A program made the position numbers and the translations under genes. Below, one piece after another: positions 38,845 to 58,688 of a stretch of 64,000 nt of DNA. The stretch comes from Clostridia bacterium (GTDB taxonomy: Bacteria > Bacillota > Clostridia > Acetivibrionales > DSM-2933). Under the pieces are notes generated by a model. The model was given only the letters and a program-made list of their open reading frames with translations, made no database searches and had not been told where the DNA came from. The stretch covers positions 212,564 through 276,563 of the forward strand of contig JAOABQ010000049.1 in the NCBI GenBank assembly GCA_026418275.1, written 5' to 3'. Numbering within the stretch: the stretch's first letter is position 1; every line of letters begins with the position of its first letter.

Positions 38845-38872
38845 TTGACAGAAGGGAAGAAAATGGTATAAA
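38845..38872 (+). promoter_or_regulatory. SigmaA-type promoter of the RNA-ligase operon leader
   Basis: TTGACA (38845-38850) and TATAAA (38867-38872) are 16 nt apart. The predicted transcript starts near 38880, about 35 nt before the leader peptide start. Confidence 0.75.
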
Positions 38873-38914
38873 ATCTTTATAACAAATTAAGTGGTTATGA
38901 AAGGAGGATGAACA

Positions 38915-39031
38915 ATGTATAAAGCAGCTTTAATAAATAATTCAATATTGAGTATGTTTATTCAAGAGCAAGGTGTTTATTCTAATATACATTGGCTTAA
39001 TCCTCTATTGTATCAATGTAAAGACAGGTAA
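38915..39031 (+). CDS. HWLN leader peptide 1 (attenuator of the RNA-ligase operon)
   Basis: The 38-residue ORF has a strong ribosome binding site (AAAGGAGG, 8 nt before ATG) and contains IHWLNPLLYQ near its end. Two homologous ORFs occur at 47949 and 48229. The conserved codons (CATTGGCTTAATC) can pair with the left arm of the terminator that follows. The peptide uses 19 of the 20 amino acids, lacking only Thr. These features fit a regulatory leader peptide rather than a functional product. A RiPP precursor is the main alternative, but no maturation gene is adjacent and the nucleotide pairing would be unexplained. Confidence 0.75.
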   Translation: MYKAALINNSILSMFIQEQGVYSNIHWLNPLLYQCKDR

Positions 39032-39059
39032 GATTTAAACTTATTACATTAAACAAATG

Positions 39060-39100
39060 GTGGTTAAGTCTAGGAAAAGGACTTAGCCACTTTTTATTTT
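39060..39100 (+). terminator. Attenuator terminator 1
   Basis: GTGGTTAAGTC (39060-39070) and GACTTAGCCAC (39080-39090) form an 11-bp stem with one G-U pair, followed by TTTTTATTTT. The left arm GGTTAAGTC is the same in all three cassettes and can instead pair over 9 bp with GGCTTAATC in the upstream peptide codons. Confidence 0.85.
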
Positions 39101-39165
39101 ATCTAAATTGAACGCGATAAAGATTTTACATCGGTTTCAATTTGTGAAGTTTTGGGGGTGAAAAA

Positions 39166-40410
39166 ATGAAAGGATATAACTGGAATCCGGTATTTAACCT
39201 GCTGTTAAAAATAAAAAACGATTATATAGAAACATTTGGTGCCTTAGATTCCAATAGGTTTGAGGATTGGTTAATGAGACTTGGCAAAAAAGAGTATGAC
39301 AATATATTTTGCTGCTTAGAGGTAAAACAACATAACCATTTTATTTTAATTCGGTATGGGATGAGTGAAATGCATGAAAGCATGTGGTTAGACCCGGAGA
39401 GTATTTACAGGGAGTGCAGAAGTATTGTCATCGATATTGATAGGGAGCAATTGGTACTGGTTCCCCTTAGGAAGTTCTTTAACTTAAACGAGGTTGATGA
39501 AAATAGGCTTGAAAGGGTGCAATGTGAAATTCAAAATGCAAAGTCTGTTGAGATAACGGATAAAATGGATGGATCAATGCAAAGTGCCAGGTACTATCAT
39601 GGAGATATTTTCATTTCGGGAAGCATGGCATTGGATAAAAGCTGCTCTTGGAGGCTTGCGGACGGGTACAGTAAATTGACTCAAAACCATAAAAAAATGA
39701 TTGTAGAAAACCCGGAGTTTACCTTTGTATTCGAGTATATAAGCATCAAGGATGCACATGTCGTTGTTTACTCCAAAGAGCAAGAAGGCATGTACCTTAT
39801 TGGGATGAGGAATGTTTTTACCGGAAAACAATTATCATACAAGGAAGTATGGGATTTTGCAGTCCGGTACCAGGTTCCTATGACAAAAATAGAGGACCGG
39901 AGTTTTGACGAAATTATGCAAGATGCAAAAAAATATAAATCAAACGAAAAAGAAGGATGGGTTTTAAATATTGACGGGCATTTAATTAAAATAAAATGTG
40001 ATGATTATGTTGATCTGCACCGGGTATTAAATAAATTTTCTTCAGTAAACACAATCATCAGGAATATTGCAGACGATACATATGACGACTTAATTGGTAA
40101 GGTGCCCGAGAACTATAGGGATAGAGTAAGGCGCATCGCAAAAGTTATTTATACATACAGAAATAACATCAATGAAAAAATTGAGGATTATTACACCAAA
40201 GCGCCTAAGGAAGACAGAAAGGAATACATGACGTGGGTTACCAACCATTGCCCTAAGGAAATACAAGGATACCTGCGTAAAAAGTACTTGAATGAAGATT
40301 ATCATGTTTTAAAAACGAATTACATTAAAAGTACCAAGTATAAAAATCTGAGTGAGCTGGGGTTAGATCACGAGTGTTCCGCTTTATTTAATGATCGGGA
40401 GGAAGCATAA
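39166..40410 (+). CDS. T4 Rnl1-like RNA ligase
   Basis: The 414-residue protein belongs to the T4 RNA ligase 1 type. Motif I is EITDKMDGSM, with the Lys (residue 133) that accepts AMP. Motif IV is near KEGWVLNIDG and motif V is LIKIKCDDY. An N-terminal segment (CRSIVIDI) matches the region before the nucleotidyltransferase core. These enzymes seal tRNA anticodon loops cut by nucleases. It is the first gene after leader cassette 1, and its stop abuts the start of the kinase-HD gene. Together they resemble the T4 Pnkp-Rnl1 repair pair, with an HD domain in place of the T4 phosphatase. Confidence 0.9.
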   Translation: MKGYNWNPVFNLLLKIKNDYIETFGALDSNRFEDWLMRLGKKEYDNIFCCLEVKQHNHFILIRYGMSEMHESMWLDPESIYRECRSIVIDIDREQLVLVPLRKFFNLNEVDENRLERVQCEIQNAKSVEITDKMDGSMQSARYYHGDIFISGSMALDKSCSWRLADGYSKLTQNHKKMIVENPEFTFVFEYISIKDAHVVVYSKEQEGMYLIGMRNVFTGKQLSYKEVWDFAVRYQVPMTKIEDRSFDEIMQDAKKYKSNEKEGWVLNIDGHLIKIKCDDYVDLHRVLNKFSSVNTIIRNIADDTYDDLIGKVPENYRDRVRRIAKVIYTYRNNINEKIEDYYTKAPKEDRKEYMTWVTNHCPKEIQGYLRKKYLNEDYHVLKTNYIKSTKYKNLSELGLDHECSALFNDREEA

Positions 40411-41304
40411 ATGAATAAATTGGTTATGATGGTGGGGCTGCCGGGAAGCGGAAAAAGTACAATTGCAAAAGAGATAGCAAAAAAGTTTGATGCTGTTTTA
40501 CATGCTTCAGATGACCTCAGAACGGAGTTGTTTGGAAATCCGCATGACCAGGTTAACAATGAAATACTTTTCCAGGAAATGAATAACAGGATCAACCGGG
40601 ATTTATCGGACGGGAAAAGTGTTGTATACGATGCAACAAATCTAAGCTACAAGAAGAGAAAAGCTTGTCTTCAAAGTCTCAAAACCAAGTGCTATAAAGA
40701 GTGCTTCCTGGTTGCTACGCCTTATGAAAAATGCTTAAGCCGAAATAAGCTTAGAAAAAGGGTTGTTCCCGAACCCGTCATTGAGAAAATGTATAAGTAT
40801 TTTTTTGTTCCTCAGTACTATGAAGGTTGGGATCACATTGAGATAATTTATACCGGTGACGATCGTTATGATTTGGATGAACTCTTTAATGATTTAGATA
40901 CCATTTCCCAAGATAATCCTCACCATACATTAACCATTGGAAGGCATTGCAAAAAGTGTTTGGAATATATAAGAGAAATACAAGATGATGATACTTTAAT
41001 GATGGCTGCGTTGCTGCATGATATCGGTAAAAAGTTTACCAAAGGGTTTTCGGATTTAAAAGGAAATCCGACCAAAGAAGCGCATTATTACAGCCATCAA
41101 AACGTATCGGCATATTTGAGCTTGTTTTATTTAAAGCATTTAAATATTGAAAATATTCTTGAGATTACAAATTATATTCAGTGGCACATGCAGCCCTTTA
41201 ACCTTCATTCAGGTAAGTCGAAGAAAAAATTTTTGAATCTTATGGGTCAAGAATTCTACGATAACTTATTGAAGCTGCATGAGGCAGATACTAAAGCGAA
41301 ATAA
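40411..41304 (+). CDS. Polynucleotide kinase fused to HD phosphohydrolase
   Basis: The 297-residue protein has an N-terminal P-loop kinase (MVGLPGSGKSTIAKEIA, then VVYDATNLSYKKR) of the polynucleotide 5'-kinase type. The C-terminal HD domain (about 170-290) has ALLHDIGKKFTKG and HYYSHQNVSAY. The kinase would phosphorylate a 5'-OH end, and the HD domain would remove a 3'-phosphate or cyclic phosphate. That would prepare both ends for the adjacent ligase. Known HD-Pnk enzymes have the opposite order (HD first), so this is the reverse fusion. It starts one base after the ligase stop. Confidence 0.87.
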   Translation: MNKLVMMVGLPGSGKSTIAKEIAKKFDAVLHASDDLRTELFGNPHDQVNNEILFQEMNNRINRDLSDGKSVVYDATNLSYKKRKACLQSLKTKCYKECFLVATPYEKCLSRNKLRKRVVPEPVIEKMYKYFFVPQYYEGWDHIEIIYTGDDRYDLDELFNDLDTISQDNPHHTLTIGRHCKKCLEYIREIQDDDTLMMAALLHDIGKKFTKGFSDLKGNPTKEAHYYSHQNVSAYLSLFYLKHLNIENILEITNYIQWHMQPFNLHSGKSKKKFLNLMGQEFYDNLLKLHEADTKAK

Positions 41305-41315
41305 GGAGGGTTTAG

Positions 41316-41447
41316 AAGTACTTTCGATTAACACTAAACGAATATGATTTGTGTTTTTGGTATGAGAATCGGATTGCCCAATTTTTGAGACCATTAGAGG
41401 AAATGGAGAAAGAGATGGGTGCTGAATGCCAAGAAGATATTTTGTGA
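41316..41447 (+). other. Open frame without start, possible gene remnant
   Basis: A stretch reading YFRLTLNEYDLCFWYENRIA then QFLRPLEEMEKEMGAE has gene-like composition, but an upstream TAG and no start codon. It may be the tail of a lost gene between the kinase-HD and ATP-grasp genes. I do not call it functional. Confidence 0.3.
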
Positions 41448-41510
41448 AACTGGGTAAGGTTATTTATACACCCTAGGAATAAATGCAAAGGGTATGAGAG
41501 GAAGAATTCA

Positions 41511-42365
41511 ATGAAGACACTAGTTTTATTTCCAGCCGATTTTAATGATATTCAAGTGGTCGATTATTGCTATAAAGATGAATATGAAACAGTATTGGGA
41601 TTTCCAGAATTTATGCCTATTTTATTTGATTTTGATGCTCTTATCAAGGGTGATGAAATAAAGCTATATCCCAATGTTACGCATCGGGCAAATTGTATCT
41701 ACCGTGGATGGATGTTGGACTGTATTCCGTATGAAAAATTATATAACAATTTATTGGAAAGAAATATTAGACTCATTAATAGTCCCGACGAATATAAATT
41801 ATGTCATATGTTTCCCAAAGTTTATTCATTTATTGAAAAATATACTCCAAAATCCATATGGTTTGAGAAAGAGCAAGATATCGATGTTCATGAGGTAAAA
41901 GCTAATTTTGATAAATTTATAATTAAGGATTATGTAAAATCTGTGAAAGGAACAGGGTTCCCTAAATTTTTTCTTAATACAATAAGTGATAGTAAATTAT
42001 TAAGATACATTGATGAGTTTATAAAACTTCGTTCGACGCTATACACCGGAGGAATTGTATTCAAAGAATATGTGGATTTGAAATTATATAATGGTTACAG
42101 CAATGAATATAGGGTGTTTTACTTTAAGTCCCATATTATATCCGTAAGCAGGAATTCTAATCAGGCAGCCTCGTGTCCTGTGGTAGATCATAGTTTTGCA
42201 AAGAAGTTTAAGGGGTTAAAAAGCAATTTTTACACAATTGATTTTGCAGAATTGTCCAACGGACGGTGGATTGTTATTGAAACAGGAGATGGTCAAGTGT
42301 CCGGATTATCTCCGGATCAATACATATTTAAATTTTATGAGGAATTGGCTTTGTTTTGTGAATGA
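41511..42365 (+). CDS. ATP-grasp domain protein (RNA-repair associated)
   Basis: The 284-residue protein has an ATP-grasp layout. FIIKDYVKSVKGTGFPKFF is the phosphate-loop region, and IVFKEYVDLKLYNGYSNEYR carries the hinge and metal-binding Glu. RWIVIETGDGQVSGLSPDQ is near the end. It resembles the DUF4343-type ATP-grasp proteins found near RNA ligases and receiver-like proteins in bacterial RNA-repair loci. The substrate is unknown. A second ATP-grasp gene occurs at 57950. AGAGGAAG lies before the ATG. Confidence 0.75.
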   Translation: MKTLVLFPADFNDIQVVDYCYKDEYETVLGFPEFMPILFDFDALIKGDEIKLYPNVTHRANCIYRGWMLDCIPYEKLYNNLLERNIRLINSPDEYKLCHMFPKVYSFIEKYTPKSIWFEKEQDIDVHEVKANFDKFIIKDYVKSVKGTGFPKFFLNTISDSKLLRYIDEFIKLRSTLYTGGIVFKEYVDLKLYNGYSNEYRVFYFKSHIISVSRNSNQAASCPVVDHSFAKKFKGLKSNFYTIDFAELSNGRWIVIETGDGQVSGLSPDQYIFKFYEELALFCE

Positions 42366-42428
42366 TAGCGTTGATATATGTTTTTATAGGTTGGTAGGGC
42401 TTTTAACGTTTTTTAAGGATGGTTTGAT

Positions 42429-42788
42429 ATGAATGAAAGGATAAATATATATGTAGATGATTTAAGGGATTGTCCGAAAGGCTTTGTTGCAGCTAGGACG
42501 GTAGAAAAAGCTAAATATTACCTTGAAACCTTTGAAGTTGATATTTTATCTCTTGACCATGATTTGGGAGAAGATCATGAAGGTAATTTGGCTCAGACAG
42601 GTTATGATTTAGTAAAGTACATTTGTGAAAAGGGCTTAAGAGCAAATAGAATCTACCTACATACTGACAATCCTGTCGGTAGAGAAAATATGTATCAGAC
42701 TTTATTGGGGGCACAGAGAAGAGGCTTTATAGATAGCGATATTGAAATATTTTACTATTCTATAACGTATAATCGGTACTCAAAGTAA
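42429..42788 (+). CDS. Cyclic-phosphate-processing receiver-domain protein (cREC)
   Basis: The 119-residue protein begins INIYVDDLRDCPKGFVAART and has ILSLDHDLGEDHEGNLAQTG and IYLHTDNPVGRENM. It matches the cREC family, a receiver-like fold with Asp and His residues. The family was proposed from comparative genomics to process cyclic 2',3'-phosphates at broken RNA ends. It is a single domain with no output region, unlike response regulators. Its place between the ATP-grasp and phosphoesterase genes agrees with that role. Confidence 0.82.
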   Translation: MNERINIYVDDLRDCPKGFVAARTVEKAKYYLETFEVDILSLDHDLGEDHEGNLAQTGYDLVKYICEKGLRANRIYLHTDNPVGRENMYQTLLGAQRRGFIDSDIEIFYYSITYNRYSK

Positions 42789-42932
42789 TTTGTAAGGTGC
42801 AAATTGAATTGCTTTGATTTAAAGAAAAAAGCTTTAAAGAATCATTGGATAGGGGTATCATACAGTCTATTGAAAATGGACTGTGAATTATGTGGGTAAT
42901 GAAAGGGATTCTTAAACAAATAGGAGAAAATC

Positions 42933-43739
42933 ATGAGAATAGAAAGGCTTAATGAAGAGCCGGTTGAGTACATTAATTATAAAACTGTAGCGGATGATGG
43001 GCATAGGGTTATTGACGTACAACTGCCAATAATTATAGGTAAAATATCAGGTTTGCCGGAATATCTTGATGCTCTTATTATTACTTCAGATTTGCAAGGA
43101 ATCTTTGTAGAAAATGAAAGAGAAATGTTACTTGGTGAAGCAATAGCTGAATTCCTACCGCTATATACTAAAATTGAATTAGGTCTAAGCCCGAAAAACA
43201 TTGGAGTTTTTTTATGTGGAGACCTATATGCAACTCTTGAAAAAAAGGGCGGCCTCGGTGACGTAAGAGCTGTTTGGAATAAATTTAATAATAACTTCAA
43301 ATGGGTTGGAGGGGTTGCTGGAAATCATGATTCTTTTGGCAGTGAAATTGAGTTTGATGAGTTTAAGAAAAGGGAAGGAATATTTTATTTTGATCGGGAA
43401 ATCCAAGTTATAGAAAACATGAAAACAGCCGGAATAAGCGGAATCATTGGAAAGCAAGACAGAGTAAATAGAATCAGGGAAGAAGATTATCTGAAGATAT
43501 TAGAGAAGTTATTAATGAAAAGGCCGGACATCTTACTCCTTCATCAAACTCCAAATAGCCCTATAGATAACCTTAAGGGAGAAGAAAAGATCAGAAGTAT
43601 AGTTGAAAAGTATACTCCAACTTTGGCTTTTTGTGGGCATTATCATTGGAAAAAGGCATTAACAGAGCTCTGTAACGGAACTCAAGTTTTAAACGTTGAC
43701 TCACGTGCTGCAATTCTAATTAATTGCAATAAAGTATAA
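42933..43739 (+). CDS. Calcineurin-like metallophosphoesterase
   Basis: The 268-residue protein shows the metallophosphoesterase motifs in order: ALIITSDLQG, VFLCGDLYA, VGGVAGNHDSFG, ILLLHQTPN and FCGHYHWKKA. The first motif has Gln where His is common (SDLQG). It probably hydrolyses a phosphodiester or phosphomonoester in the repair pathway. It follows cREC on the same strand after a 144-nt gap. The ATG has TAGGAGA upstream. Confidence 0.85.
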   Translation: MRIERLNEEPVEYINYKTVADDGHRVIDVQLPIIIGKISGLPEYLDALIITSDLQGIFVENEREMLLGEAIAEFLPLYTKIELGLSPKNIGVFLCGDLYATLEKKGGLGDVRAVWNKFNNNFKWVGGVAGNHDSFGSEIEFDEFKKREGIFYFDREIQVIENMKTAGISGIIGKQDRVNRIREEDYLKILEKLLMKRPDILLLHQTPNSPIDNLKGEEKIRSIVEKYTPTLAFCGHYHWKKALTELCNGTQVLNVDSRAAILINCNKV

Positions 43740-43843
43740 TAAAAATAAGGTATTACCATTATGTTTAAGATTTCTAACTGAAAAGGCACTAAAAAGATGT
43801 TTGTCAAAAGCGGGAGTATTGAAAAATACGAGGAGGAATTATA

Positions 43844-44551
43844 ATGAAAATTGGAATTGTAGGTGGAATCGGTCCAGAATCAACAGTGGATTATTATAAA
43901 AGAACCATCCATGAATATCAGAAAATGAAAAAGGACGGCAGTTATCCTCAAATCGTAGTCGACAGCATAGATATGAAAGAGATGCTCTACTACATTGAAA
44001 GAAAAGAGTTGTCATCTCTAGTAAATATGCTGATGAGTGCGTTAAAGAATTTGAGTAATGCAGGTGCGGACTTCGCGGTTATCGCATCAAACACTCCTCA
44101 TGTTGTATATGATGCGGTTAAGGAATTATCTTCAATTCCTGTTTTGAGTATCGTTGAAGAAACGGCAAAAAAGGCGAAAGAATTAAATCTAAAAAGAGTT
44201 GGCTTACTGGGTACTGCTTTTACCATGAAAGAATCATTTTACAAAAACGGTTTATTAAAATATAAGATAGATATTGTGGTTCCTGATGAAAGTGAACAGG
44301 CAACTATTCATGAAAAAATATTTAGTGAACTGGAAATGGGTATTGTAAAAATTGAAACAAAGAATGAGTTCCTTAAAATAATAAAAAGGATGATTGTAGA
44401 AGATTCAATTGAAGGGCTTGTTTTAGGATGCACGGAATTGCCCCTAATTTTAAAAAGTGGTGATAGTGACGTTCTGATTCTAGACACTGTAGAAATCCAT
44501 GTGCAGAGCATAATTCGTCAAATAAAGAACGGATTAACACAAAACCGGTAA
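43844..44551 (+). CDS. Aspartate/glutamate racemase family protein
   Basis: The 235-residue protein has the Asp/Glu racemase fold: GIVGGIGPESTVDYYKR, FAVIASNTPHVVYD and LVLGCTELPLIL. The second catalytic Cys is present (GCTEL). The first position is Ser-Asn-Thr rather than Cys-Asn-Thr, so it may be a one-base or lyase-like variant, or have lost racemase activity. CGAGGAGG precedes the ATG. Its link to RNA repair is not obvious and it may be a passenger. Confidence 0.83.
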   Translation: MKIGIVGGIGPESTVDYYKRTIHEYQKMKKDGSYPQIVVDSIDMKEMLYYIERKELSSLVNMLMSALKNLSNAGADFAVIASNTPHVVYDAVKELSSIPVLSIVEETAKKAKELNLKRVGLLGTAFTMKESFYKNGLLKYKIDIVVPDESEQATIHEKIFSELEMGIVKIETKNEFLKIIKRMIVEDSIEGLVLGCTELPLILKSGDSDVLILDTVEIHVQSIIRQIKNGLTQNR

Positions 44552-44589
44552 AGGTCTCGGAAAAATAAAGATAGGATGGGGGGATGTGT

Positions 44590-44769
44590 ATGGAAAATAA
44601 CCTTATAAAGCAGATAAATGAACTGTTTGAAGCAGAAAATTTACATATGGATTTGCTTACAGAGAAATTTAACTGTCTATTGTCTAAAATGAATTATACT
44701 GATCAGTTAGGCTTGCATGACGCACTAACAGCTACAGGGGGTTCTTATGTTAATTCCATTAGAGTTTAA
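44590..44769 (+). CDS. Small hypothetical protein
   Basis: The 59-residue protein reads as two short helices (NNLIKQINELFEAENLHMDL, then FNCLLSKMNYTDQLGLHDAL) without a known motif. ATG 44590 has GGGGGG about 7 nt upstream, better placed than ATG 44584. Its end overlaps the start of the next gene by 23 nt, so the two are coupled. Confidence 0.6.
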   Translation: MENNLIKQINELFEAENLHMDLLTEKFNCLLSKMNYTDQLGLHDALTATGGSYVNSIRV

Positions 44770-45697
44770 TAAGGAATCAAACATTCTATTAGCAGGTGCC
44801 GGGGGCGGTTTTGATTTTTTATGTGCATTACCCCTTGCTTTAAAGCTAATGAACGAAGGGCACAACGTATTTTTTGCAAACTACTCTTTTACATCTTTAC
44901 TTAAAGTGGGAAATAGTCTATGGGTTTCTGATGAGATACTGGAAGTTACATATGAATCTTTCATCGAAGATACCGAGTATTTTCCCGAATTGTATTTGTC
45001 GAAGTGGTTTAAGGAAGTCAAAGGGATTAACATGCCTATTTATTGTTTTCCCAGAATAGGAGTTCGACCTCTTTTACGGGCTTATGATTTTTTAAAAGCC
45101 CATTTAAAGATTGATGAAGTATTAATTGTTGACGGTGGAGTAGACGGCATATTTAGAGGGGATGAATATGATCTTGGCACGCCATCCATGGACTCGATTT
45201 CCATTATAGCCGCCAGTTTGAGCAGTATTGAGAAAAAATACTATATTTTCACCGCGTTTGGCTCTGAAGGCGTTAATAAGGAGGTTTCCCACGGGGAAGC
45301 TTTAGAAAGAGTATCTGGCCTCATTAAAAATGATAAATTTTATGGCGTATCAAGCTTGTTAAAAAATACTGCCATTGGTAAAACGTTTTTGGATGCGGTT
45401 TATTATATTTTTGAAAGGATGCCGTCAAAGCATCATAGCAATATTGTCGGCTCTATTGTGAAAGCAATGGAAGGCTCTTTTGGAGACACTGCCGTAAATG
45501 AGAAAACAGCGGCCAACCCTATTTGGGTATCTGCATTTACAAATATGTTCTGGTATTTTGAATTGGAAGCTGTTGCTAAGATGAAATTGTTTTATGAAGA
45601 GGTCCTGGGAAGTAACACAGTTGAGGAGGTCTCAAATTCCATAGACAATATCCATTTGGCTTTCGGAAAGTCAATAAGAATGGATATACCGATTTAG
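44747..45697 (+). CDS. DUF1152 family protein
   Basis: The 316-residue protein has the N-terminal glycine-rich LLAGAGGGFDFLCALPLALK, then VLIVDGGVDGIFRGDEYDLG and IYCFPRIGVRP. This matches the DUF1152 family, which has a nucleotide-binding-like Gly-rich loop and no firm function. GGGGG lies 6 nt before the ATG. It is the last gene of the first RNA-repair block, facing a chemoreceptor gene on the other strand. Confidence 0.8.
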   Translation: MLIPLEFNKESNILLAGAGGGFDFLCALPLALKLMNEGHNVFFANYSFTSLLKVGNSLWVSDEILEVTYESFIEDTEYFPELYLSKWFKEVKGINMPIYCFPRIGVRPLLRAYDFLKAHLKIDEVLIVDGGVDGIFRGDEYDLGTPSMDSISIIAASLSSIEKKYYIFTAFGSEGVNKEVSHGEALERVSGLIKNDKFYGVSSLLKNTAIGKTFLDAVYYIFERMPSKHHSNIVGSIVKAMEGSFGDTAVNEKTAANPIWVSAFTNMFWYFELEAVAKMKLFYEEVLGSNTVEEVSNSIDNIHLAFGKSIRMDIPI

Positions 45698-45754
45698 GGT
45701 GATATTGAATGTAAGGCTTTACAAGCGCTTCTGTGGACTACTTTTATATTCAAA

Positions 45755-47242
45755 TTAGTGATTATTTGAGACTATTGTTTTCAGCTCCCCGGATAGATCA
45801 ACTAAATCCGTCATCTGGTCCTCAATACTTTTGATTTGTTGATCCTGGGTAAGTGTACTGTTTGTAATCTCACTCATCGTTGCCGCAGCTTCCTGAGAAA
45901 GTGCTGCTATATTTTGAATGTTGGTGAATACAGTATGGGATTCATTGGAAAGGGTACTTACCTTATTAAAAACATTTTCAACGATATCATTAATTTCACC
46001 AACCCATTCAATGATGTTTAAGAAACATGAATAGGTGGTGTTTGTAGTATCCCGCCCTTTTTCAATAGCATGATTTCCATCGGTGATCTGGCTGCTTAAC
46101 TGATTTACCTTTTGTGTTATGTTCCCTAAAATATTTGAAATTCCTTGAACAGCCTTTGCCGTCTGCTCTGCAAGCTTTCTAATTTCTTCGGCAACAACCG
46201 AAAATCCTTTACCGGCTTCCCCAGCTCTTGCTGCTTCTATGGATGCATTAAGAGAGAGAAGATTAATTTGACTTGCTATTCCGGTAATCAGGCCTGCAAT
46301 GTTATCTATTTCCTTAGAATTTAAACTCAGGGAGCTTATCATTTCAAGGGCTGCATTGATGGTATTCTCAATGACTTTAATTTGGTTTACAAGTTCTGTT
46401 ACAACACTTTTTCCATCCTGGGCAGAAATAAAAGCTGTAGAAGTGCTTTTATTCATATGTTGGGTACTTTCCTCAACCTCTACGATAAATTGTTCTATCG
46501 TTGACAGGGAATAGCTTGAATCTGAAGCACCCCGCGCTAAATCACCAATAACGTTGTTAAACTGCTGAATGGAATAAGTGATTCGTGAGGTTTCTTCCTT
46601 GGTTATTAAAGTATCATTGCTGATCTTGGATATATTACCGTCAAGGGCTATTGAAGTTTGACGGATCTTCAAAAATACTTCCTGCAACTTTTCATTCAAC
46701 TCGTTTGCTTCTTTGGTCTTTCTTCTGGCACTGAGGATTAGTTTACCTCCAAAATGTCCTTGTGCGGCAATGATAATGCCAATGGCAATAAGACTAAAAC
46801 AGAATGTGGCAAACTCATTTGGTTTTAGTACCGGAAAAAACAGTTTAGCGTTCCAGGTGTAAAGGACTACAGCCATTATAACTCCAAATGATGCTGTCAC
46901 AATGGCAACCCATTTATCAAAAAATATTGCGGTTACAGATAGTCCCACATAAAGCCAAAACAAGTTATCAATGACACCCTTTTGGACATAGAGTAAGCTA
47001 TACATAAGGGTAAACGTTCCACTTCCTATAAAATATCTTACAAAAATATTATCCTTTTTTATAAAATATAAAATAATCGCAGGAGAAATGATAGCAAATC
47101 CGGCTCCCCATATCGCAAGAGTGCCACCCATCTTATAATTTTGTGCAAAATATTCAGGAAGTCCTCCTACGAGAAGCGCAAAACAGAAAATGATTAATCC
47201 TAGCTTGTTTACTTTCTTTAAATCAAAAATACTTTCATTCAT
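45755..47242 (-). CDS. Methyl-accepting chemotaxis protein with multi-helix membrane domain
   Basis: The 495-residue protein has about six N-terminal membrane helices (roughly 15-185). A cytoplasmic signalling domain (about 200-495) follows, with the hairpin tip sequence [20 protein letters not shown] and long coiled coils. It lacks a periplasmic Cache or four-helix sensor and a HAMP domain. It may therefore sense membrane state or an intracellular signal. ATG 47242 has GGGGGG upstream; a longer frame from 47275 is possible. It separates the two RNA-repair blocks. Confidence 0.9.
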
Positions 47243-47948
47243 ATAAGCCAACCCCCCAGCATAAGATAGGTCCACAACAGCGATACTTTGAATATCCTAT
47301 AGGAATAGTTTTATATAATTCCGGAAATAATTTTGTTAACAGGAAATGATTTCAAAAGGTTATATAAATGGATATTTTGTAAAATACGTATGTTAAATGT
47401 GCTTACATGACTGTGATATCAGCAAATTGAGTCAAATTCTATTACAGAGCATAAGTTTATACGGGTAATCAGTTTACTTTTGGGATTATATATTAAGATA
47501 TACTAAGTTGGATTATTCTCAGATGTTTTTTAGATACGATATATGAACTTTACAATTCTATATTCGACATCCATAGATAGTATTCCTTTTTTTATAGCAA
47601 GTTTCTTGCTTACCTCACTGCTCATTATTTATAATTATGTGGATTAATTCAGTCCGAATTAAATATAACAGGTTTCAAAGGATTAAATTGCTGTAAATAA
47701 TATTAGTGATTTCAAAAAGTAGGTCACAGGGATTAGAACAATCAAAACCCAATAGATGCCTCAGTATAGTATAATACAAGAAGTTCAAGGGTTAAGTATG
47801 GCCAATATTACAAAAATATTACAAGTTAAAATATCCCTTGACGGGATAAGCTTACCTATGCTAACATATAAACACTATGCTTTGAAAAGTGATCTTGTGC
47901 TTAGCACTAGAAGAATTTTAAAAATGACGATTGAAAGGAGGATTATCA
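47243..47948. other. Intergenic stretch upstream of the tandem leader cassettes
   Basis: No supported gene lies in this 0.7 kb. A 76-codon frame at 47756-47986 overlaps leader peptide 2 and lacks a ribosome binding site. A candidate promoter (TTGACG at 47838, TAACAT at 47862, 18-nt spacing) would serve cassette 2. Confidence 0.45.
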
Positions 47949-48068
47949 ATGTATTACTTAAAACATGCAGCATTGGAACAAAATAATATTACGGCGAAGC
48001 TATCAGAGAAATCAGGTACAGATATTAACGTACATTGGCTTAATCCTCTGTTTAAAGTGTTGAGATAA
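47949..48068 (+). CDS. HWLN leader peptide 2
   Basis: The 39-residue ORF has GAAAGGAGG upstream of its ATG and contains VHWLNPLFKV. It aligns with leader peptide 1 over its start (MY) and the HWLNPL motif. Its codons CATTGGCTTAATCC are identical to those of peptide 1. It uses 19 of 20 amino acids, missing only Cys. The TTGGCTTAATC segment can pair with 11 bases of the terminator left arm. It is the first of two tandem cassettes in front of the tRNA/EF-Ts block. Confidence 0.75.
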   Translation: MYYLKHAALEQNNITAKLSEKSGTDINVHWLNPLFKVLR

Positions 48069-48095
48069 ACGATAAATATCTTTTCAGTTTATTAG

Positions 48096-48137
48096 AGCGG
48101 TTAAGTCAAGGGAATAAGACTTAATCGCTTTTTATTT
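48096..48137 (+). terminator. Attenuator terminator 2
   Basis: AGCGGTTAAGTC (48096-48107) and GACTTAATCGCT (48118-48129) form a 12-bp stem with one G-U pair, followed by TTTTATTTT. The right arm closely resembles the HWLN codons, as expected if both compete for the left arm. Confidence 0.85.
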
Positions 48138-48228
48138 TCCGCTAACTTTGCTTTGGGTATAAAGTGAGTTATATAAAGTAAACATAAAAGAACTGATGAA
48201 TGAGAAAATGAATGAAGGGAGATTAGCA

Positions 48229-48357
48229 ATGTTGTTATTTAGAAATACACATCATGAACAATTGAATATGGCGATTGAATGGACATATAAACCAGGTTTG
48301 GATTCAGAGAAACATTGGCTTAATCTTCTATTCTTAAAATGCAGGAAACGATTGTAA
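48229..48357 (+). CDS. HWLN leader peptide 3
   Basis: The 42-residue ORF contains KHWLNLLFLK, with codons CATTGGCTTAATC shared with the other two leaders. It lies directly behind terminator 2, so a transcript must pass two attenuators in series. It uses 19 of 20 amino acids, missing only Val. The ribosome binding site is GAAGGGAG upstream of the ATG. The sequence outside the motif is unlike peptides 1 and 2, so selection acts on the motif and probably on composition. Confidence 0.72.
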   Translation: MLLFRNTHHEQLNMAIEWTYKPGLDSEKHWLNLLFLKCRKRL

Positions 48358-48394
48358 CTCGGTAGAATTTTACAATAAAAGCATTTATGAATAA

Positions 48395-48438
48395 GAGTGG
48401 TTAAGTCTGATAAAAAGGATTTAACCACTCTTTTGTTT
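48395..48438 (+). terminator. Attenuator terminator 3
   Basis: GAGTGGTTAAGTCT (48395-48408) and GGATTTAACCACTC (48417-48430) form the stem, followed by TTTTGTTTT. The left arm again includes GGTTAAGTC while the right arm has diverged. Confidence 0.82.
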
Positions 48439-48493
48439 TATAAGAAAAAATTAATTTTTGTAGATGATAAGTTTAGCAGAAAGGATGATGTTT

Positions 48494-48730
48494 ATGATGA
48501 TTTTAAAAGTAACACCCGTAAGAAACGTTTTGATAGGCAAGGCTTCTTTTAAGAGCGAAAGACCAGATATGTTTTTTAACAAAGTGGTTGGAGAAGATTC
48601 AACGGTAAATATTTACGATGTTTCAGAAAGGAAACAAAAGGTTCTGAACGTTACTGAAATAAATAAAAGAAATCACAGAATGATTATCAATGATAAAAGA
48701 TACTTCATATGCTCAATCAATGCAGGGTAA
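48494..48730 (+). CDS. Small hypothetical protein ahead of the tRNA cluster
   Basis: The 78-residue protein reads as a beta-rich small domain (ILKVTPVRNVLIGKASF, ending INDKRYFICSINAG). AAAGGATG lies 7 nt before ATG 48494; further in-frame ATGs make the exact start uncertain. I recognise no family. It is the first gene after the tandem attenuators and about 90 nt ahead of the tRNA genes. Confidence 0.6.
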   Translation: MMILKVTPVRNVLIGKASFKSERPDMFFNKVVGEDSTVNIYDVSERKQKVLNVTEINKRNHRMIINDKRYFICSINAG

Positions 48731-48817: not shown

Positions 48818-48892
48818 CGGTAAGTGGCTTAATGGTAAAGCACCATGCTGATAACGTGGGGAGTGGGAGTTCGATTCTCCCCTTACCGACCA
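48818..48892 (+). tRNA. tRNA-Ile (anticodon GAT)
   Basis: CGGTAAG pairs with CTTACCG, followed by discriminator A and encoded CCA. The D stem is GCTT/AAGC, the anticodon stem CCATG/CGTGG (with a G-U) with loop CTGATAA, and the T arm GGGAG-TTCGATT-CTCCC. The first base pair is C-G rather than the usual G-C of Ile tRNAs, so it is an unusual, probably accessory copy. Confidence 0.85.
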
Positions 48893-48900
48893 ATTCATAT

Positions 48901-48976
48901 GACGGGTTCTTCTAATGGACAGGAAATGAGGCTTTCAACCTCATAACGGAGGGTTCGATTCCCCCACCCGTCACCA
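48901..48976 (+). tRNA. tRNA-Glu (anticodon TTC)
   Basis: GACGGGT pairs with ACCCGTC, followed by A and CCA. The anticodon loop is CTTTCAA in stem TGAGG/CCTCA, and the T loop is TTCGATT. The T stem GAGGG/CCCCC has an A-C mismatch and the D stem TTCT/AGGA has a T-G pair. It is therefore a less canonical copy than a housekeeping tRNA-Glu would be. Confidence 0.83.
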
Positions 48977-49017: not shown

Positions 49018-49103
49018 GGGTGAGTGTGCCGAGCGGCGAAGGCAGCGGTCTGTAAAACCGTGACATGGAAACACCGGTGGTTCAAATCCGCCCTCACCCA
49101 CCA
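49018..49103 (+). tRNA. tRNA-Tyr (anticodon GTA)
   Basis: GGGTGAG pairs with CTCACCC, followed by A and CCA. The anticodon loop is CTGTAAA, a long variable arm typical of bacterial tRNA-Tyr follows (GACATGGAAACACC), and the T arm is GGTGG-TTCAAAT-CCGCC. It ends 24 nt before the EF-Ts gene. Confidence 0.9.
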
Positions 49104-49778: not shown

Positions 49779-49814
49779 TAGGACAGAGTTATAAAAAAAA
49801 CAAGGGGAATGGTT

Positions 49815-50498
49815 ATGATGAGTCATGGGGTTTTTATCAAATACCCGGATATGAAAACACTATTTAAACTGGTTCCTTCCAGTAAGAAAGGAAAGAAATG
49901 GGATGCAACAAGTGGTGAAATACTGCCCGAAACAGCAGCACTGCATTTCATTTCCCTTGAGGAACTTGTTTTTACAGAAAAGATAGACGGTACCAATATG
50001 GGGATCCGAGTAACGGATGGGGTTGTTTCACATATTCAAAAAAGAGAACATATTTGCGTCAGGGAAGATAAGGGTGATGCTTTCTACTTTGAAATTGGGG
50101 AGTCCGTTACTGGTGTTATTGAAAATCAAAAAATTGAGCAATTACAAAATGTCATAATATACGGAGAACTTTGCGGAGAAAAGATACAAAAGGGCGGCAA
50201 CTATTTTAAAGGCAGGAAGTTTATTGTTTTTGACATATATGATACGGTTACAAATAGATTCTTAACCTGGGATGCAGTTAGACATTTTACAGGTGAATTA
50301 GGTTTTGAAACAGCTCCTGAAATCAATTACAATAAGGAAGATTTAAAGGTTCATAATGTAAAGGACTTTGTTCTTGCTCAAAAATCAGTTTTCAATCCCA
50401 ATTCTGATGCCGAGGGATTGGTAATAAGGCATAGAAAAGACACACTTCCAGTAAGACGGTGGATGGCAAAGATAAGGAAAAAGGATTTTATTTATTAG
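49815..50498 (+). CDS. Rnl2-type RNA ligase
   Basis: The 227-residue protein has the ligase core of the T4 Rnl2 family. Motif I is FTEKIDGTNMGIR with the AMP-accepting Lys. FIVFDIYD is the motif III-like strand, DAEGLVIRH motif IV, and WMAKIRKKDF motif V. It is shorter than T4 Rnl2 and lacks its C-terminal domain. It is a second, different ligase from the one at 39166, which suggests different broken ends are sealed. AAGGGG lies 7 nt upstream of ATG 49815; ATG 49809 and 49818 are also possible. Confidence 0.87.
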   Translation: MMSHGVFIKYPDMKTLFKLVPSSKKGKKWDATSGEILPETAALHFISLEELVFTEKIDGTNMGIRVTDGVVSHIQKREHICVREDKGDAFYFEIGESVTGVIENQKIEQLQNVIIYGELCGEKIQKGGNYFKGRKFIVFDIYDTVTNRFLTWDAVRHFTGELGFETAPEINYNKEDLKVHNVKDFVLAQKSVFNPNSDAEGLVIRHRKDTLPVRRWMAKIRKKDFIY

Positions 50499-50930: not shown

Positions 50931-51987
50931 ATGTTGGAATTTGAACAAATAAAACTTGAAATGAACGCGTGGGAAAACAAATTAAAAGAATTGCAGGTTT
51001 ATCTTTGACATAGTAAAAACTCAAAATGAGATGGCTGAACTTGAACAAGAAGCTTTGAAACAAGAGTTTTGGAAAGATGCTAAGAAATCTAAAAAAACAA
51101 TGAAGGAAATAAAAAGGCTAAAAGAGAAAAAAGAGCGTTATACCAATCTTATTGAAGCATGGGAAAATAATAAAATTCTATATGAACTTGTATCAGAGGA
51201 AAACGATCAAAGATTCATAAAAGAAATTAGAGAAAACTTTTGCCATATCCAAAAAGTCTATGAAAAGCTAAAAGTAGAAGCCTTATTTAAGGATGAGAAT
51301 GATAAACGAAATGCAATATTGATATTGAATTCTAAAGGCAAAGGGCTCGAAGCCCGGCAGTGGGTTCAGGAATTGCTTCAAATGTACATAAAGTGGTCTG
51401 AACATAAAGGGTTTATGATCCAGATGAATTTTGATGTCATAGACAGTACGTTATTGATTATTGGGACTTATGCATATGGCAATTTGAAGGGTGAGAAAGG
51501 TATACACTGTAAAATGATGAAATCTGAAAACCGGCTGGAGGGTATTCATGATTGCCTAGCCTATGTAGATGTTATACCGGAAATGGATGACGAGATAGAA
51601 TTTCAAATTGCCCCTGAGGATATTGTTATAAATCACTATTGTACAAGAGATGAGAATGGTGTTCCAGCTTCAAGTGCACGGATGGTTCATATTCCTACCG
51701 GTATTGAGGTGGCTTATAATAATCCTCTTTTATTTAAAAATAGGGAGTTAGCTATTAAAATACTAAAATCCAAGCTTTTCGAGCATAAACAATATTCCGG
51801 TTTGAAAGAGATTCCTTTAGGCATAGACTGGGAAAGTCAAATAAGGTCCTATATACTTGATCCTTCACCTTTGGTAATTGATAATAGGACTGATTATAGA
51901 GAAAGCGGTGTGAAGGATATTCTAAATGGAAAAATAGACGGGTTTATTTACGCGTGGCTTGAAATGCAGGGAAAGGATAAAAGATGA
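50931..51987 (+). CDS. Release factor 2 paralog lacking GGQ and SPF, with programmed +1 frameshift
   Basis: Reading begins at ATG 50931 and meets TGA at 51006 after CTT. A +1 shift at CTT-TGA-C continues to 51987, as in bacterial prfB. The joined roughly 343-residue protein has the RF2 N-terminal coiled domain (EMAELEQEALKQEFWKDAKK) and a C-terminal RF core with ARMVHIPTGIEVAY and GIDWESQIRSYILDPSPLVIDNRTDYR. The GGQ loop is replaced by ENGVPASS, and the SPF stop-codon motif is absent. It therefore cannot hydrolyse peptidyl-tRNA in the known way, but may bind ribosomes or a damaged site. It overlaps the endonuclease V gene by 4 nt. Confidence 0.82.
51003..51009 (+). promoter_or_regulatory. 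Programmed +1 frameshift site
   Basis: CTTTGAC is identical to the shift site of bacterial prfB, preceded by an AGG-containing stretch (GCAGGTTTAT) a few bases upstream. Zero-frame reading ends at TGA 51006-51008; the +1 frame continues with GAC. In prfB this couples synthesis to release factor 2 activity. Confidence 0.8.
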
Positions 51988-52688
51988 AAATAACTTGGGT
52001 GCACGATTTTATCAATAGAGATGAAAGTTACCTGTTAAAAATTCAAAAGGAGTTAAAAGAAAAGATTCATGTAAGACATTATGAGGGGAAGTTAGATATT
52101 GTTGCAGGGGTGGATCTTGCTTACTTTGATGTAGGCGGTAGGGAGTATGCAGTTTGTGTAATTGTACTTATTGATTTTAAGACTCTTAACATTATAAAGA
52201 CATACTATGAATACGGGGAAATCGACTTTCCTTATATCTCAGGTTTTTTGGCTTTCAGGGAACTTCCCTTGTTTTTAAAGGCCTGGGAAAAAGTTGAGGT
52301 TGAACCGGATTTGGTGGTGTTTGATGGACAGGGAATGCTGCATCCTCAAAGAATGGGTATTGCGACGCATGCTTCATTTTTTATAGAGAAGCCGACGATA
52401 GGTGTAGGGAAAACCTACTTCAAGTTTAACAGTACCGAATTTGTGATGCCTGACAATGCTGCAGGTACATATTCCTTTTTAAAGGATCATAATGAAACTG
52501 TCGGCGTTGCACTCAGAACACATAAGGACGTAAAGCCTATCTTTGTATCGGTAGGAAATTTTATCAGCTTGGAACAAGCCATGGATATTGTAATGAAAAT
52601 GGTAACAAAAGAAAGTAGATTACCTGTAGCAACCAGGTATGCCGACATTGAAACACACCGGTTGAGGGAGAAATATCTTTCCCAATAA
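51984..52688 (+). CDS. nfi: Endonuclease V
   Basis: The 234-residue protein is endonuclease V: IVAGVDLAYFDVGGREYAV with the metal-binding Asp, then FRELPLFLKAWEKV, VVFDGQGMLHPQRMGIATH and IGVGKTYF. Bacterial members nick DNA near deaminated bases, and some act on inosine in RNA. Inside an RNA-repair block, inosine-containing RNA is a plausible substrate. Its start overlaps the RF2-like stop (ATGA), so the two are coupled. All main motifs are present. Confidence 0.92.
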   Translation: MKITWVHDFINRDESYLLKIQKELKEKIHVRHYEGKLDIVAGVDLAYFDVGGREYAVCVIVLIDFKTLNIIKTYYEYGEIDFPYISGFLAFRELPLFLKAWEKVEVEPDLVVFDGQGMLHPQRMGIATHASFFIEKPTIGVGKTYFKFNSTEFVMPDNAAGTYSFLKDHNETVGVALRTHKDVKPIFVSVGNFISLEQAMDIVMKMVTKESRLPVATRYADIETHRLREKYLSQ

Positions 52689-52714
52689 GGAAGCATATAC
52701 GAGGAGGATATTCA

Positions 52715-55212: not shown

Positions 55213-55662
55213 ATGGAAGTTGTTATTTTTATAGGAATCCAGGCGAGCGGTAAAAGTACTTTTTATAAGGAAAAATTTTTTAAAACACATATGAGAGTCA
55301 ATCTGGATATGTTAAAAACCAGGAAAAGGGAAGAAATTTTGCTTGAAGCCTTGATAAAGGCTAAACAACCTTTTGTTGTGGACAATACCAATCCCACAGC
55401 AGAGGATCGGAAAAAATACATAGAGCTGGCAAAACGTGCGGAATTCAAGGTAATAGGCTATTTCTTTCAATCGAATGTTGATGAGTCCGTTTTAAGAAAC
55501 AGGCAAAGAGAAGGGAAGGAACGGATCCCTTTAATAGGAATCAGAAATACATATGCCAAACTGCAGCTGCCAAGTTTGGGGGAAGGCTTTGACATAATAT
55601 ACAGCGTACGGATTGATGAAGAAAATAGATTCGTAGTTGAGGAGTGGAAAAATGAAGTTTAA
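55213..55662 (+). CDS. P-loop polynucleotide kinase
   Basis: The 149-residue protein has a Walker A (IGIQASGKSTFYKEKFF), a NLDMLKTRKR segment and VVDNTNPTAEDRKKYIELAK. It matches the single-domain 5'-polynucleotide kinase type (AAA_33). It would phosphorylate 5'-OH RNA ends. GGAGGTG precedes the ATG. The 3' end overlaps the Thg1 start, implying that the kinase and the 3'-5' polymerase work on the same RNAs. Confidence 0.87.
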   Translation: MEVVIFIGIQASGKSTFYKEKFFKTHMRVNLDMLKTRKREEILLEALIKAKQPFVVDNTNPTAEDRKKYIELAKRAEFKVIGYFFQSNVDESVLRNRQREGKERIPLIGIRNTYAKLQLPSLGEGFDIIYSVRIDEENRFVVEEWKNEV

Positions 55663-56413
55663 TGATCTTGATTTAAAAATGAGAGTATATGAGACTGCGC
55701 ATGATTATTGTGTTGTTCCTGAAGTATATATGGTTGCACGTATTGATGGCCGGAATTTCACCAGGCTTACCAAAGAAGTTCACACCTTCGAAAGTCCTTT
55801 TGATGTGCGGTTTAGAGATTATATGGTTGCAACTTGTGAACACCTTATGAACTGCGGGTTTAGGGTGGTTTACGGGTATACCCAAAGTGATGAGATTTCT
55901 CTATTGTTTCATCGGGATGAAGGGGCTTTTGGACGAAAAGTCCGTAAGTTTAATTCCATTTTGGCAGGGGAGGCCAGCAGTAAGTTTTCTGTTTTGTTAG
56001 GCGATATTGCTTGTTTTGACTGCAGAATCTCGGAACTGCCCAATAGTAAGACCGTGATCGATTATTTCAGGTGGAGATATGAGGATGCGCATAGGAATGC
56101 TTTAAATGCGCACTGTTATTGGATGCTGAGAAAGAAAGGGAAGTCTTATCAGGAAGCTACCGATTATCTAAGCGGCATGACTGTCAGTGAAAAGAATGAA
56201 CTGTTATTTCAGAACGGAATTAATTTTAATGATCTGCCCAATTGGCAGAAAAGGGGTGTGGGATTATACTGGGAGGCCTATGACAAACCTTGTGTGAACC
56301 CGGTCACCGGTAGGGAAGGAACCGCCCAAAGAAGGAAGATCAATGTAGATTGTGATTTACCCATGAAGGACGATTATAACAATTTTATATTGAAGTTTAT
56401 AGAAAATATGTAA
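55652..56413 (+). CDS. thg1: Thg1-like 3'-5' RNA polymerase
   Basis: The 253-residue protein matches tRNA-His guanylyltransferase. ARIDGRNFTRLT contains the first metal-binding Asp (residue 32), and YTQSDEISLLF holds Asp80 and Glu81. Bacterial Thg1-like proteins add nucleotides in the 3'-5' direction to repair truncated tRNA 5' ends. ATG 55652 follows GAGGAG and overlaps the kinase gene by 11 nt. Thg1 is uncommon in clostridia, and its company here supports a repair role rather than normal tRNA-His maturation. Confidence 0.92.
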   Translation: MKFNDLDLKMRVYETAHDYCVVPEVYMVARIDGRNFTRLTKEVHTFESPFDVRFRDYMVATCEHLMNCGFRVVYGYTQSDEISLLFHRDEGAFGRKVRKFNSILAGEASSKFSVLLGDIACFDCRISELPNSKTVIDYFRWRYEDAHRNALNAHCYWMLRKKGKSYQEATDYLSGMTVSEKNELLFQNGINFNDLPNWQKRGVGLYWEAYDKPCVNPVTGREGTAQRRKINVDCDLPMKDDYNNFILKFIENM

Positions 56414-56429
56414 ACGGAGGGAGTATCGG

Positions 56430-58684: not shown

Positions 58685-58688
58685 TATC

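Follow-up and report, generated by a model that had tools for sequence, protein, structure and literature searches.

Leader codons that pair with their own ribosome-binding site mark probable attenuators of RNA-repair and spare-tRNA operons in clostridia

In a 64,000-nucleotide (nt) stretch of a clostridial genome (Clostridia bacterium, order Acetivibrionales, family DSM-2933; assembly GCA_026418275.1, contig JAOABQ010000049.1, positions 212,564 to 276,563; hereafter the window), three short leader open reading frames (ORFs), each followed by a terminator-like hairpin, precede genes for RNA repair, tRNAs and translation factors. We found that a conserved run of leader codons, segment 2 (ATACATTGGCTTAATCCTCT, codons IHWLNPL), is approximately the reverse complement of the leader's own initiation region, segment 1 (GGAGGATTA.CAATGTAT), and is also complementary to the left arm of the terminator (segment 3), which in turn pairs with the right arm (segment 4). 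A cassette with these three pairings (1:2, 2:3 and 3:4) is probably a transcription attenuator, which would allow readthrough into the repair, spare-tRNA and translation-factor genes when a ribosome that has initiated on the leader stalls in its first codons.

Three leader cassettes in the window

The leader ORFs start at 38915, 47949 and 48229, encode 38, 39 and 42 amino acids (aa), and each has a Shine-Dalgarno (SD) sequence. A first-pass annotation, made from the sequence alone, had described three ORFs sharing HWLN in identical codons, and the nucleotide motif CATTGGCTTAATC is the same in all three, within the residues HWLNPL (ORF 38915), HWLNPL (ORF 47949) and HWLNLL (ORF 48229). The intrinsic terminator that it placed after each ORF was also recovered: the terminator scanner lists 39059-39091 and 48393-48432, hairpins with U tracts, and the middle hairpin (48092-48138), missing from the scanner's list, was given by folding at −17.5 kcal/mol with 0/200 shuffles as good. 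The features of the cassettes are as follows.

38845..38874, + strand: promoter-like site of cassette 1 (TTGACA-18-TAAAAT; 11/12 matches, the region's number of such sites being not above shuffles)
38903..38921, + strand: cassette 1 segment 1, namely SD sequence, start codon and codon 2 of the leader (folding of 38897-39008)
38915..39031, + strand: leader ORF 1, MYKAALINNSILSMFIQEQGVYSNIHWLNPLLYQCKDR
38985..39007, + strand: cassette 1 segment 2 (codons IHWLNPL), partner of segment 1 or segment 3
39059..39091, + strand: cassette 1 segments 3 and 4, intrinsic terminator (terminator scanner; −18.8 kcal/mol, 0/200 shuffles)
47838..47867, + strand: promoter-like site of cassette 2 (9/12 matches, the number of sites being not above shuffles)
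47937..47955, + strand: cassette 2 segment 1, ribosome-binding site and start codon (in the minimum-energy fold of 47931-48051)
47949..48068, + strand: leader ORF 2, MYYLKHAALEQNNITAKLSEKSGTDINVHWLNPLFKVLR
48028..48050, + strand: cassette 2 segment 2
48094..48131, + strand: cassette 2 segments 3 and 4, terminator (folding)
48217..48236, + strand: cassette 3 segment 1 (in the minimum-energy fold of 48211-48331)
48229..48357, + strand: leader ORF 3, MLLFRNTHHEQLNMAIEWTYKPGLDSEKHWLNLLFLKCRKRL
48308..48331, + strand: cassette 3 segment 2
48393..48432, + strand: cassette 3 segments 3 and 4, terminator (terminator scanner; −22.3 kcal/mol, 0/200 shuffles)

The cassette 1 RNA from 38897 to 39008 folds at −29.8 kcal/mol, which 0/200 shuffles equal. 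A T-box, a riboswitch or another described RNA family was rejected for want of an Rfam model at gathering score: in the window tRNAs alone reach that score, and the matches at 47700-48500 are all far below it. A conserved promoter/5′-end element, with CACTATGCCTnAAAAAATGTTGTTGAG at the predicted transcript start, was observed at 47838-47900 and in 22 other leaders (23/51 leaders, counted at 17 or more matches); in cassette 2 the shared 5′ element starts just 3′ of the promoter-like site, and its TGCC...GGCA, judged by eye, could form a hairpin in several leaders.

Distribution of the cassettes

The 5.8 Mb genome has seven exact copies of the motif CATTGGCTTAATC; besides the three of the window, contigs C17, C44 and C72 carry four. 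All seven lie in in-frame leaders with GGAGG- or GGGAG-type ribosome-binding sites, followed by a terminator-like hairpin. The shared left arm and differing right arms described in the first-pass annotation extend to this whole set, in which the left arm GGTTAAGTC is invariant and the right arms vary mostly by G-U/G-C exchanges.

Searches were made with two covariance models, R1, built from the seven own cassettes, and R2, rebuilt from 54 rows; the leader upstream region (segment 1) was part of no search model. R1 gave 32 matches in 4/5 genomes of the family and 53 matches in 16/58 genomes of the order. R2 matched 19/58 genomes of the order, of which G042 on inspection has a bare terminator, so that at least one leader was seen in 18/58. 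At the class level (391 genomes), 13 genomes had matches, 8 of them inside the order; inspection of the five outside it (G066, G191, G213, G353 and G425) showed no leader, and these matches were rejected together with G042. Two further sets of candidates were discarded. Five IMG/VR stretches carrying a 16-mer were taken as chance and not as viral copies, since their R1 scores do not exceed 23.6 bits where they are listed at all, and the 45 matches to an SD-gap-motif pattern in genome contigs are mostly not cassettes, R1 backing 9/45 (E ≤ 1e-4). More than one leader is carried by 12 stretches, mostly in tandem and a few hundred bases apart; one such partner, L099:604, is degenerate.

Nine A3 rows that lie on the antisense strand or have no motif were left out of the counts. 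In 51 of the 57 sites analysed, the motif is preceded by an in-frame start, chosen by its SD match. The pairing tests exclude L111:643, L107:643 and L099:604. For L084, L096 and L102 the script gave no in-frame start; L084 and L096 were examined separately, and L102 starts too near a contig end. L082:1047 entered the pairing, swap, folding and resampling tests with a wrong start, the better start giving −17.6 kcal/mol.

Segment 2 pairs with the initiation region and with the terminator left arm

To evaluate the 1:2 pairing, partners were swapped among sites. For the start codon with IHW, the own pairing beats 20000/20000 swaps both with all 51 leaders and with 41 (one site per orthologous pair; z −6.4), and for the SD sequence with LNPL it was better in all but 15 (N=51) and 148 (N=41) of 20000 swaps; the control combinations start:LNPL and SD:IHW showed no clear difference. 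On the A5 alignment, which holds 39/51 leaders with 81-87 nt from ATG to motif, L082:1047 being left out, 94.1% of the cells in 14 pairs were paired versus 38-53% when the strands were slid, and the covariation score was 0.126 versus 0.032-0.093. Seven pairs had changed on both sides, which 0/500 shuffles reach, with 11 two-sided cells versus 2.2 in shuffles. Covariation thus supports the 1:2 pairing. Compensation is seen where a GTG start meets CATACTGG (L098:10420), where GGAGAATT meets AATTCTC (L077:4799), and in cassette 3 of the window, where segment 1 (GGGAGATTA, with GAGATTA) fits the motif TAATCTTC through a C-G to U-A change. The SD:motif part alone is weaker than the whole initiation region, its two-sided count being reached in 9/500 shuffles and its covariation being 0.066 versus 0.072 at slide +2.

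The initiation regions themselves bear a matching feature: AT follows GGAGG in 37 of the 44 leaders with GGAGG (51 examined) versus 6/53 other genes (201 examined). Over all 51 leaders, a median of 0.7% of 139 other genes' initiation regions pair equally well with segment 2. Six further sites were considered, five of them in no model's alignment and one, in G055, present as a row in A4 without its upstream region; three were matched by 0/139 other initiation regions, one by 1 and one (G023) by 10, while the G055 site has no start in the motif's frame.

The 2:3 pairing, which the first-pass annotation had reported, is real and longer than it stated, having about 9 base pairs (bp), which in many cassettes continue beyond one bulge as CCTCTAT:ATAGAG. 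Of its pair cells in 54 rows, 94.1% form versus 20-53% when slid, and 0/20000 swaps (N=51) and 6/20000 (N=41) were as good. In the same rows, 97.7% of the 3:4 cells are paired, with seven two-sided pairs. A 2:4 control was weakly better than swaps (z −2.2; −1.3 with N=41), as expected if segments 2 and 4 both copy the complement of segment 3. The motif codons and the terminator right arm therefore do compete for the left arm, as had been proposed, and the pairing is kept in homologues. The scheme is nevertheless more than a two-way competition, since the helix between the ribosome-binding site and start codon and IHWLNPL completes a 1:2/2:3/3:4 set; this third helix, like the family across the genome and the order, had been overlooked.

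Codon choice bears on both helices. When the seven motif codons were resampled synonymously at 40 sites, the summed energy was −474 kcal/mol observed versus −356 (standard deviation 19) for 1:2, and −600 versus −414 (standard deviation 22) for 2:3. At a single site, a median of 17% (1:2) and 10% (2:3) of synonymous versions pair equally well, so the effect is clear only in sum. Folding gave 1:2 in 51/51 leaders when the RNA ends at segment 2 and 2:3 in 50/51 when it starts at codon 16, as it would ahead of a stalled ribosome, which is consistent with the three-state logic proposed below.

The conserved peptide is mainly a coding shadow

The first-pass annotation treated HWLN as a peptide signal; IHWLNPL is better read as mainly a coding shadow of the RNA pairing, the conserved H and W codons sitting inside segment 2. 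In the 40-aa leader of L203 (G055) the motif falls in a different frame, so that HWLN is not encoded; 2:3 is kept (−16.0 kcal/mol), with a weaker 1:2 (−10.7 kcal/mol, equalled by 5/139 other initiation regions). L084 stops inside the motif (MYMAGCREQKENYIYKQLIHKQDTYTLA) and keeps both 1:2 (−13.9 kcal/mol; 2/139) and 2:3 (−14.5 kcal/mol). Both stand directly 5′ of Hen1, and because they keep the RNA segments without HWLN they argue against a requirement for the conserved peptide. L096, without HW (RLNPL), keeps 1:2 (−18.4 kcal/mol; 1/139), and the variants YWLS, HWPD, HWFN, HWLD, HWLY, YWRN and QWLN keep most pairs. The pattern that the first-pass annotation named as contrary to its proposal, HWLN kept and pairing lost, is not the one observed; the pairing is mostly kept where HWLN changes.

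Leaders of the L203 and L084 type are a minority, and a peptide role in the others is possible. Nonsynonymous and synonymous divergence over 17 leader pairs (pN 0.17, pS 0.27; the pairs are not independent) indicates weak purifying selection. The leader composition, high in N, I, Q, Y and C and low in V, G, T, D and A, may reflect only the low G+C content (28%) and was not used as evidence.

Genes behind the leaders

Genes and tRNAs were predicted downstream of the 57 sites and the proteins clustered, with names taken from Pfam/NCBIfam scans of representatives of part of the clusters; the regulon count uses 55 sites, two being left out. At 47/55 sites, at least one of the listed recurrent families or a tRNA lies within the first six co-directional features. 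The families are PF04308 RNase H-like proteins (19 sites), tRNA genes (17), a 78-aa protein of unknown function (15), Pnkp or AAA_33/HD proteins (11), RtcB, Rnl1 and Hen1 (6 each), PF09414 ligases (6 and 4), EF-Ts (4), vWA/Ro60-like proteins (4) and EF-G (2), plus others; since tandem leaders share operons, these are counts of sites, not of independent operons. Relatives behind leaders include a Pnkp of 870 aa and a Hen1 of 465 aa. Thus the RNA-repair targets claimed earlier do lie downstream, together with a divergent tRNA set and extra translation factors that the claim did not include. Among the eight misses, L099:967 does adjoin a PF04308 gene, three leaders (L079, L092 and L091) have a contig end within about 0.5 kb, two (L107 and L104) are degenerate, and L090 and L096 precede unscanned genes.

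Rnl1 (PF09511) occurs in 7/60 genomes and in six of them sits behind an R1 match. At the seventh (L162) the leader is gone and the hairpin is kept with an altered left arm (1145-1222), with a 48-aa Hen1 fragment 2 kb on; this is a decayed cassette, decaying as expected. For Hen1 in G018, no R1 match was found in the 1.5 kb upstream examined. Among the 58 genomes of the order, only two have extra EF-Ts copies: G000, the window's genome, has one, which stands under a leader, and G001 has three, of which two do. In G003, L073 is followed by a 93-aa EF-Ts piece that falls below the threshold of the EF-Ts search. RtcR, a CARF activator, was found in 0/58 genomes, the E. coli control being positive.

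Several side observations concern these operons. The 78-aa family often follows the PF04308 gene, and its member at L081:9377-9610 has no Pfam or NCBIfam match. A leader sub-family (MQRxCMLCF...) precedes an EF-G gene in L109 and L110 (689 aa, scanned in L109, with L110 in the same cluster); L201 and L202 have the same leader type and a next ORF that begins alike. An SPFH/Band 7 protein lies in one leader operon (L098:7324-8433), and a frame similar by eye lies 5′ of Rnl1 (L162:1-1081).

The genes around the window cassettes are listed below; the ligase, kinase and end-processing genes adjoin in one putative operon, judged by family match and gene order.

39166..40410, + strand: RNA ligase of T4 Rnl1 type (PF09511; family match)
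40411..41304, + strand: AAA_33 kinase plus HD domain, end-healing type (family match)
41511..42365, + strand: R2K ATP-grasp protein (PF14243; family match)
42429..42788, + strand: cyclic-phosphate processing receiver domain protein (PF20274; family match)
48494..48730, + strand: 78-aa small protein of the family recurrent in leader operons
48818..48892, + strand: tRNA-Ile(GAU), reserve type
48901..48976, + strand: tRNA-Glu(UUC), 63% identical to the best housekeeping Glu(UUC)
49018..49103, + strand: tRNA-Tyr(GUA), 70% identical to the best housekeeping Tyr(GUA) and 94% to the leader-operon Tyr in L074
49128..49778, + strand: EF-Ts paralogue, this genome's second copy
49809..50498, + strand: RNA ligase (PF09414)
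51031..51987, + strand: release-factor-like protein (PCRF/RF-1), prfB-like below the NCBIfam cut-off
55637..56413, + strand: Thg1, tRNA-His guanylyltransferase family
56430..57368, + strand: ADP-ribosylglycohydrolase family

The region 51984-59376, 3′ of cassette 3, holds, besides Thg1 and the ADP-ribosylglycohydrolase, an Endonuclease V, a radical SAM protein, an R2K ATP-grasp protein, a PTH2-like protein and a 100-aa C-terminal piece of PNKP ligase. Upstream of cassette 1 lie a phage-type integrase (24122-25279), about 14 kb away, and a ParB-like protein (29313-30347), about 9 kb away.

A reserve set of tRNAs

Ten tRNAs stand behind leaders in G000. Eight of them have a same-anticodon counterpart among the 55 other tRNAs, and their identity to the best such copy is 58-70%; housekeeping same-anticodon pairs of this genome are 89-100% identical in 21/24, and the remaining three, at 68-70%, are all Met(CAU), an anticodon carried by different tRNA types. 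For 8/10, the leader operons of other genomes contain a same-anticodon relative at 76-96% identity, at 85% or above in seven cases. Four comparable leader tRNAs of G001 are 64-72% identical to its housekeeping tRNAs, 15 distinct ones being compared. By these identities, the leader-operon tRNAs look like a conserved reserve set.

Leader codons modestly follow the tRNAs of their own operon: by residue count, 105 matches versus 91.0 permuted were found in 16 tRNA-bearing leaders (p 0.024), with p 0.0004 in comparison with 34 leaders without tRNAs, tandem leaders of one operon being counted twice. As a separate observation, the reserve tRNA-Leu genes at L020:8434-8510 (UAG) and 8880-8954 (UAA) are only 77 and 75 nt long and so have no long variable arm, which is expected of bacterial tRNA-Leu.

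Discussion

The cassettes contain the parts of a ribosome-mediated attenuator, namely a leader ORF with a ribosome-binding site, a terminator before the operon, an antiterminator overlapping the ORF and a 1:2 protector helix. From these parts we infer the ribosome steps, the direction of readthrough and the trigger. Without initiation, 1:2 would form and leave segment 3 free for segment 4, giving termination. Under normal translation, the ribosome would be on or near segment 2 during synthesis of segments 3 and 4, and termination would follow here too. With a stall upstream of segment 2, and segment 1 covered by the stalled or the next ribosome, 2:3 would form and block the terminator. Such a switch would sense a failure of elongation and not of initiation. 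It would likely be triggered by a loss of usable tRNA, for example by tRNA damage, because the operons are predicted to encode enzymes that seal broken RNA ends, together with replacement tRNAs and additional EF-Ts and EF-G. In sum, the observation of the first-pass annotation is confirmed, whereas its interpretation as a whole is partly supported, the readthrough after a stall before the motif being a prediction.

Several points weigh against this reading. In the 1:2 test, slide −2 gives seven two-sided pairs and 10 cells and slide −3 gives 11 cells, so the two-sided count alone is not decisive. The 2:3 helix has only three two-sided pairs (reached by 68/500 shuffles), six cells (1/500) and a score reached by 23/500, and the conservation of its columns is partly built in, R1 and R2 containing them as sequence; the swap tests, too, leave some relatedness among sites. 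Within the window, shuffles equal the 1:2 folds of cassettes 2 (47931-48051) and 3 (48211-48331) in 17/200 and 31/200 cases, and the 2:3 folds of the three cassettes, in pieces that end inside segment 3, in 124/200, 4/200 and 38/200. L104, with TAG for TGG and hence a stop at W, has weak helices (1:2 equalled by 19/139, 2:3 at −7.0 kcal/mol), although it may simply be decaying. The match of leader codons to operon tRNAs is weaker when scored by presence (p 0.07 within tRNA operons, 0.024 against leaders without tRNAs). Naked RNA through segment 3 is split between the folds (mean 6.0 pairs for 1:2 versus 7.3 for 2:3), so that the decision would rest on kinetics. Moreover, the median distance from motif start to stop codon is 48 nt, which means that a ribosome paused at the stop would leave the core of segment 2 uncovered; for termination under normal translation, the timing of the ribosome's presence on segment 2 would have to be right. 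That the leaders are translated and that transcripts terminate or read through are predictions from sequence.

Other explanations were weighed against the same data. An arrest peptide, in which nascent HWLNP halts the ribosome in response to a drug or metabolite, the RNA fold then depending on where it halts, as known from antibiotic-inducible leaders, would agree with the conservation of HWLNPL in most leaders, with an ATG-to-motif distance of 84 nt in 28/51 leaders and 72-87 nt in 49/51, a spacing near the length of the ribosome exit tunnel, and with a pN/pS below 1 in 13/16 leader pairs (of 17 compared, one gives no defined ratio). We consider it quite improbable: the conserved residues are largely those with pairing codons, motif codon choice favours pairing beyond the peptide, the variant motifs and the two leaders without HWLN mostly keep the RNA segments, and a stall on the motif would place the ribosome over segment 2, favouring termination. 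That segment 1 is the ribosome-binding site also invites the thought that its state alone, through free ribosomes or initiation factors, sets readthrough, leader elongation being irrelevant; such a sensor of initiation or ribosome abundance appears unlikely, given that an open frame of about 28 codons before the motif, more than it would need, is kept in most leaders, and that leader codon content modestly follows the operon's tRNAs.

The His and Trp codons present at the motif in most leaders recall a classical attenuator that stalls at one of them when charged tRNA is lacking. This is extremely improbable here: a ribosome halted there would occupy segment 2 and so prevent 2:3, several leaders have another residue for H or W and still keep most of the pairing, and no His/Trp biosynthesis family was found among the annotated recurrent downstream clusters, not every downstream gene having been scanned. 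Very doubtful, too, is a trans-acting protein or RNA that sets the fold through the leader or its conserved 5′ end, with leader translation secondary. The promoter/5′-end element in 23/51 leaders would suit it, whereas 28/51 fall below the element threshold, a few narrowly, RtcR is absent from 58/58 genomes, and the window has no Rfam family but tRNA at gathering score. The attenuator sensing a stall in the first leader codons is the favoured reading.

In trp- and his-type attenuators, a leader ORF and a terminator are combined with mutually exclusive 1:2, 2:3 and 3:4 pairings, and the ribosome position decides among them. The cassettes share the leader ORF, the intrinsic terminator, the exclusive pairings and, as predicted here, the decision by ribosome position. 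They differ in that the role of segment 1 is taken by the leader's ribosome-binding site and start codon instead of late regulatory codons, that the segment 2 codons are conserved across operons, and that the targets are RNA-repair, tRNA and translation-factor genes, not biosynthesis. A trp/his-type run of end-product codons that frees segment 2 was rejected, the H and W codons lying inside that segment.

A further regulatory parallel is the antibiotic-induced attenuator in the Bacillus subtilis yxjB leader, where the sequestered SD sequence is that of yxjB and no overlapping antiterminator was identified (PMC6851288). As there, a stalled leader ribosome is predicted here to prevent termination 5′ of a gene that relieves a translation problem; unlike there, the leader sequesters its own initiation region and has an evident antiterminator (PMC6851288). 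For RNA repair, a different control is known elsewhere, with products that include Rsr, a Ro60 relative. RtcR, a CARF-domain activator that binds tRNA fragments, is described as controlling the rtcBA and rsr-yrlBA operons (PMC7790460). The clostridial operons overlap with these in kinds of product (RtcB, Ro60-like) and, by inference, in a control linked to tRNA damage, but control by RtcR was rejected, RtcR being absent from the 58 genomes, and sensing would run through translation (PMC7790460). Relatives of the bacterial Pnkp/Hen1/Rnl repair enzymes stand behind several leaders; the passages on that pathway say nothing on gene regulation (PMC4411300). Phage tRNAs, which differ from the host set, have been proposed to resist host anticodon nucleases and are thought to replace cleaved tRNAs (PMC10264068). 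The extra tRNAs found here are likewise unlike the housekeeping set, but they are chromosomal, stand behind a probable attenuator and occur together with repair enzymes (PMC10264068). No description of this leader system was found in the open literature, subscription papers being mostly outside its coverage.

These findings offer a concrete, testable answer, in clostridia, to how bacteria without RtcR control Rnl1/Pnkp/Hen1 and RtcB genes, and the proposed attenuator ties RNA repair to a conserved second tRNA set. They suggest a form of attenuator in which the ribosome-binding site serves as the sensor strand, which could let it distinguish initiation from elongation. A conserved 'peptide' that is mostly the shadow of RNA pairing is, in addition, a caution for small-ORF annotation. 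On balance, we lean towards the view that clostridia of this order have a dedicated response to elongation failure, in which dozens of attenuators, each with its leader's ribosome-binding site as sensor strand, would switch on a hidden second tRNA set, RNA-repair enzymes and back-up EF-Ts and EF-G once ribosomes have initiated but are stuck, with leader codons tuned to the replacement tRNAs of the operon.

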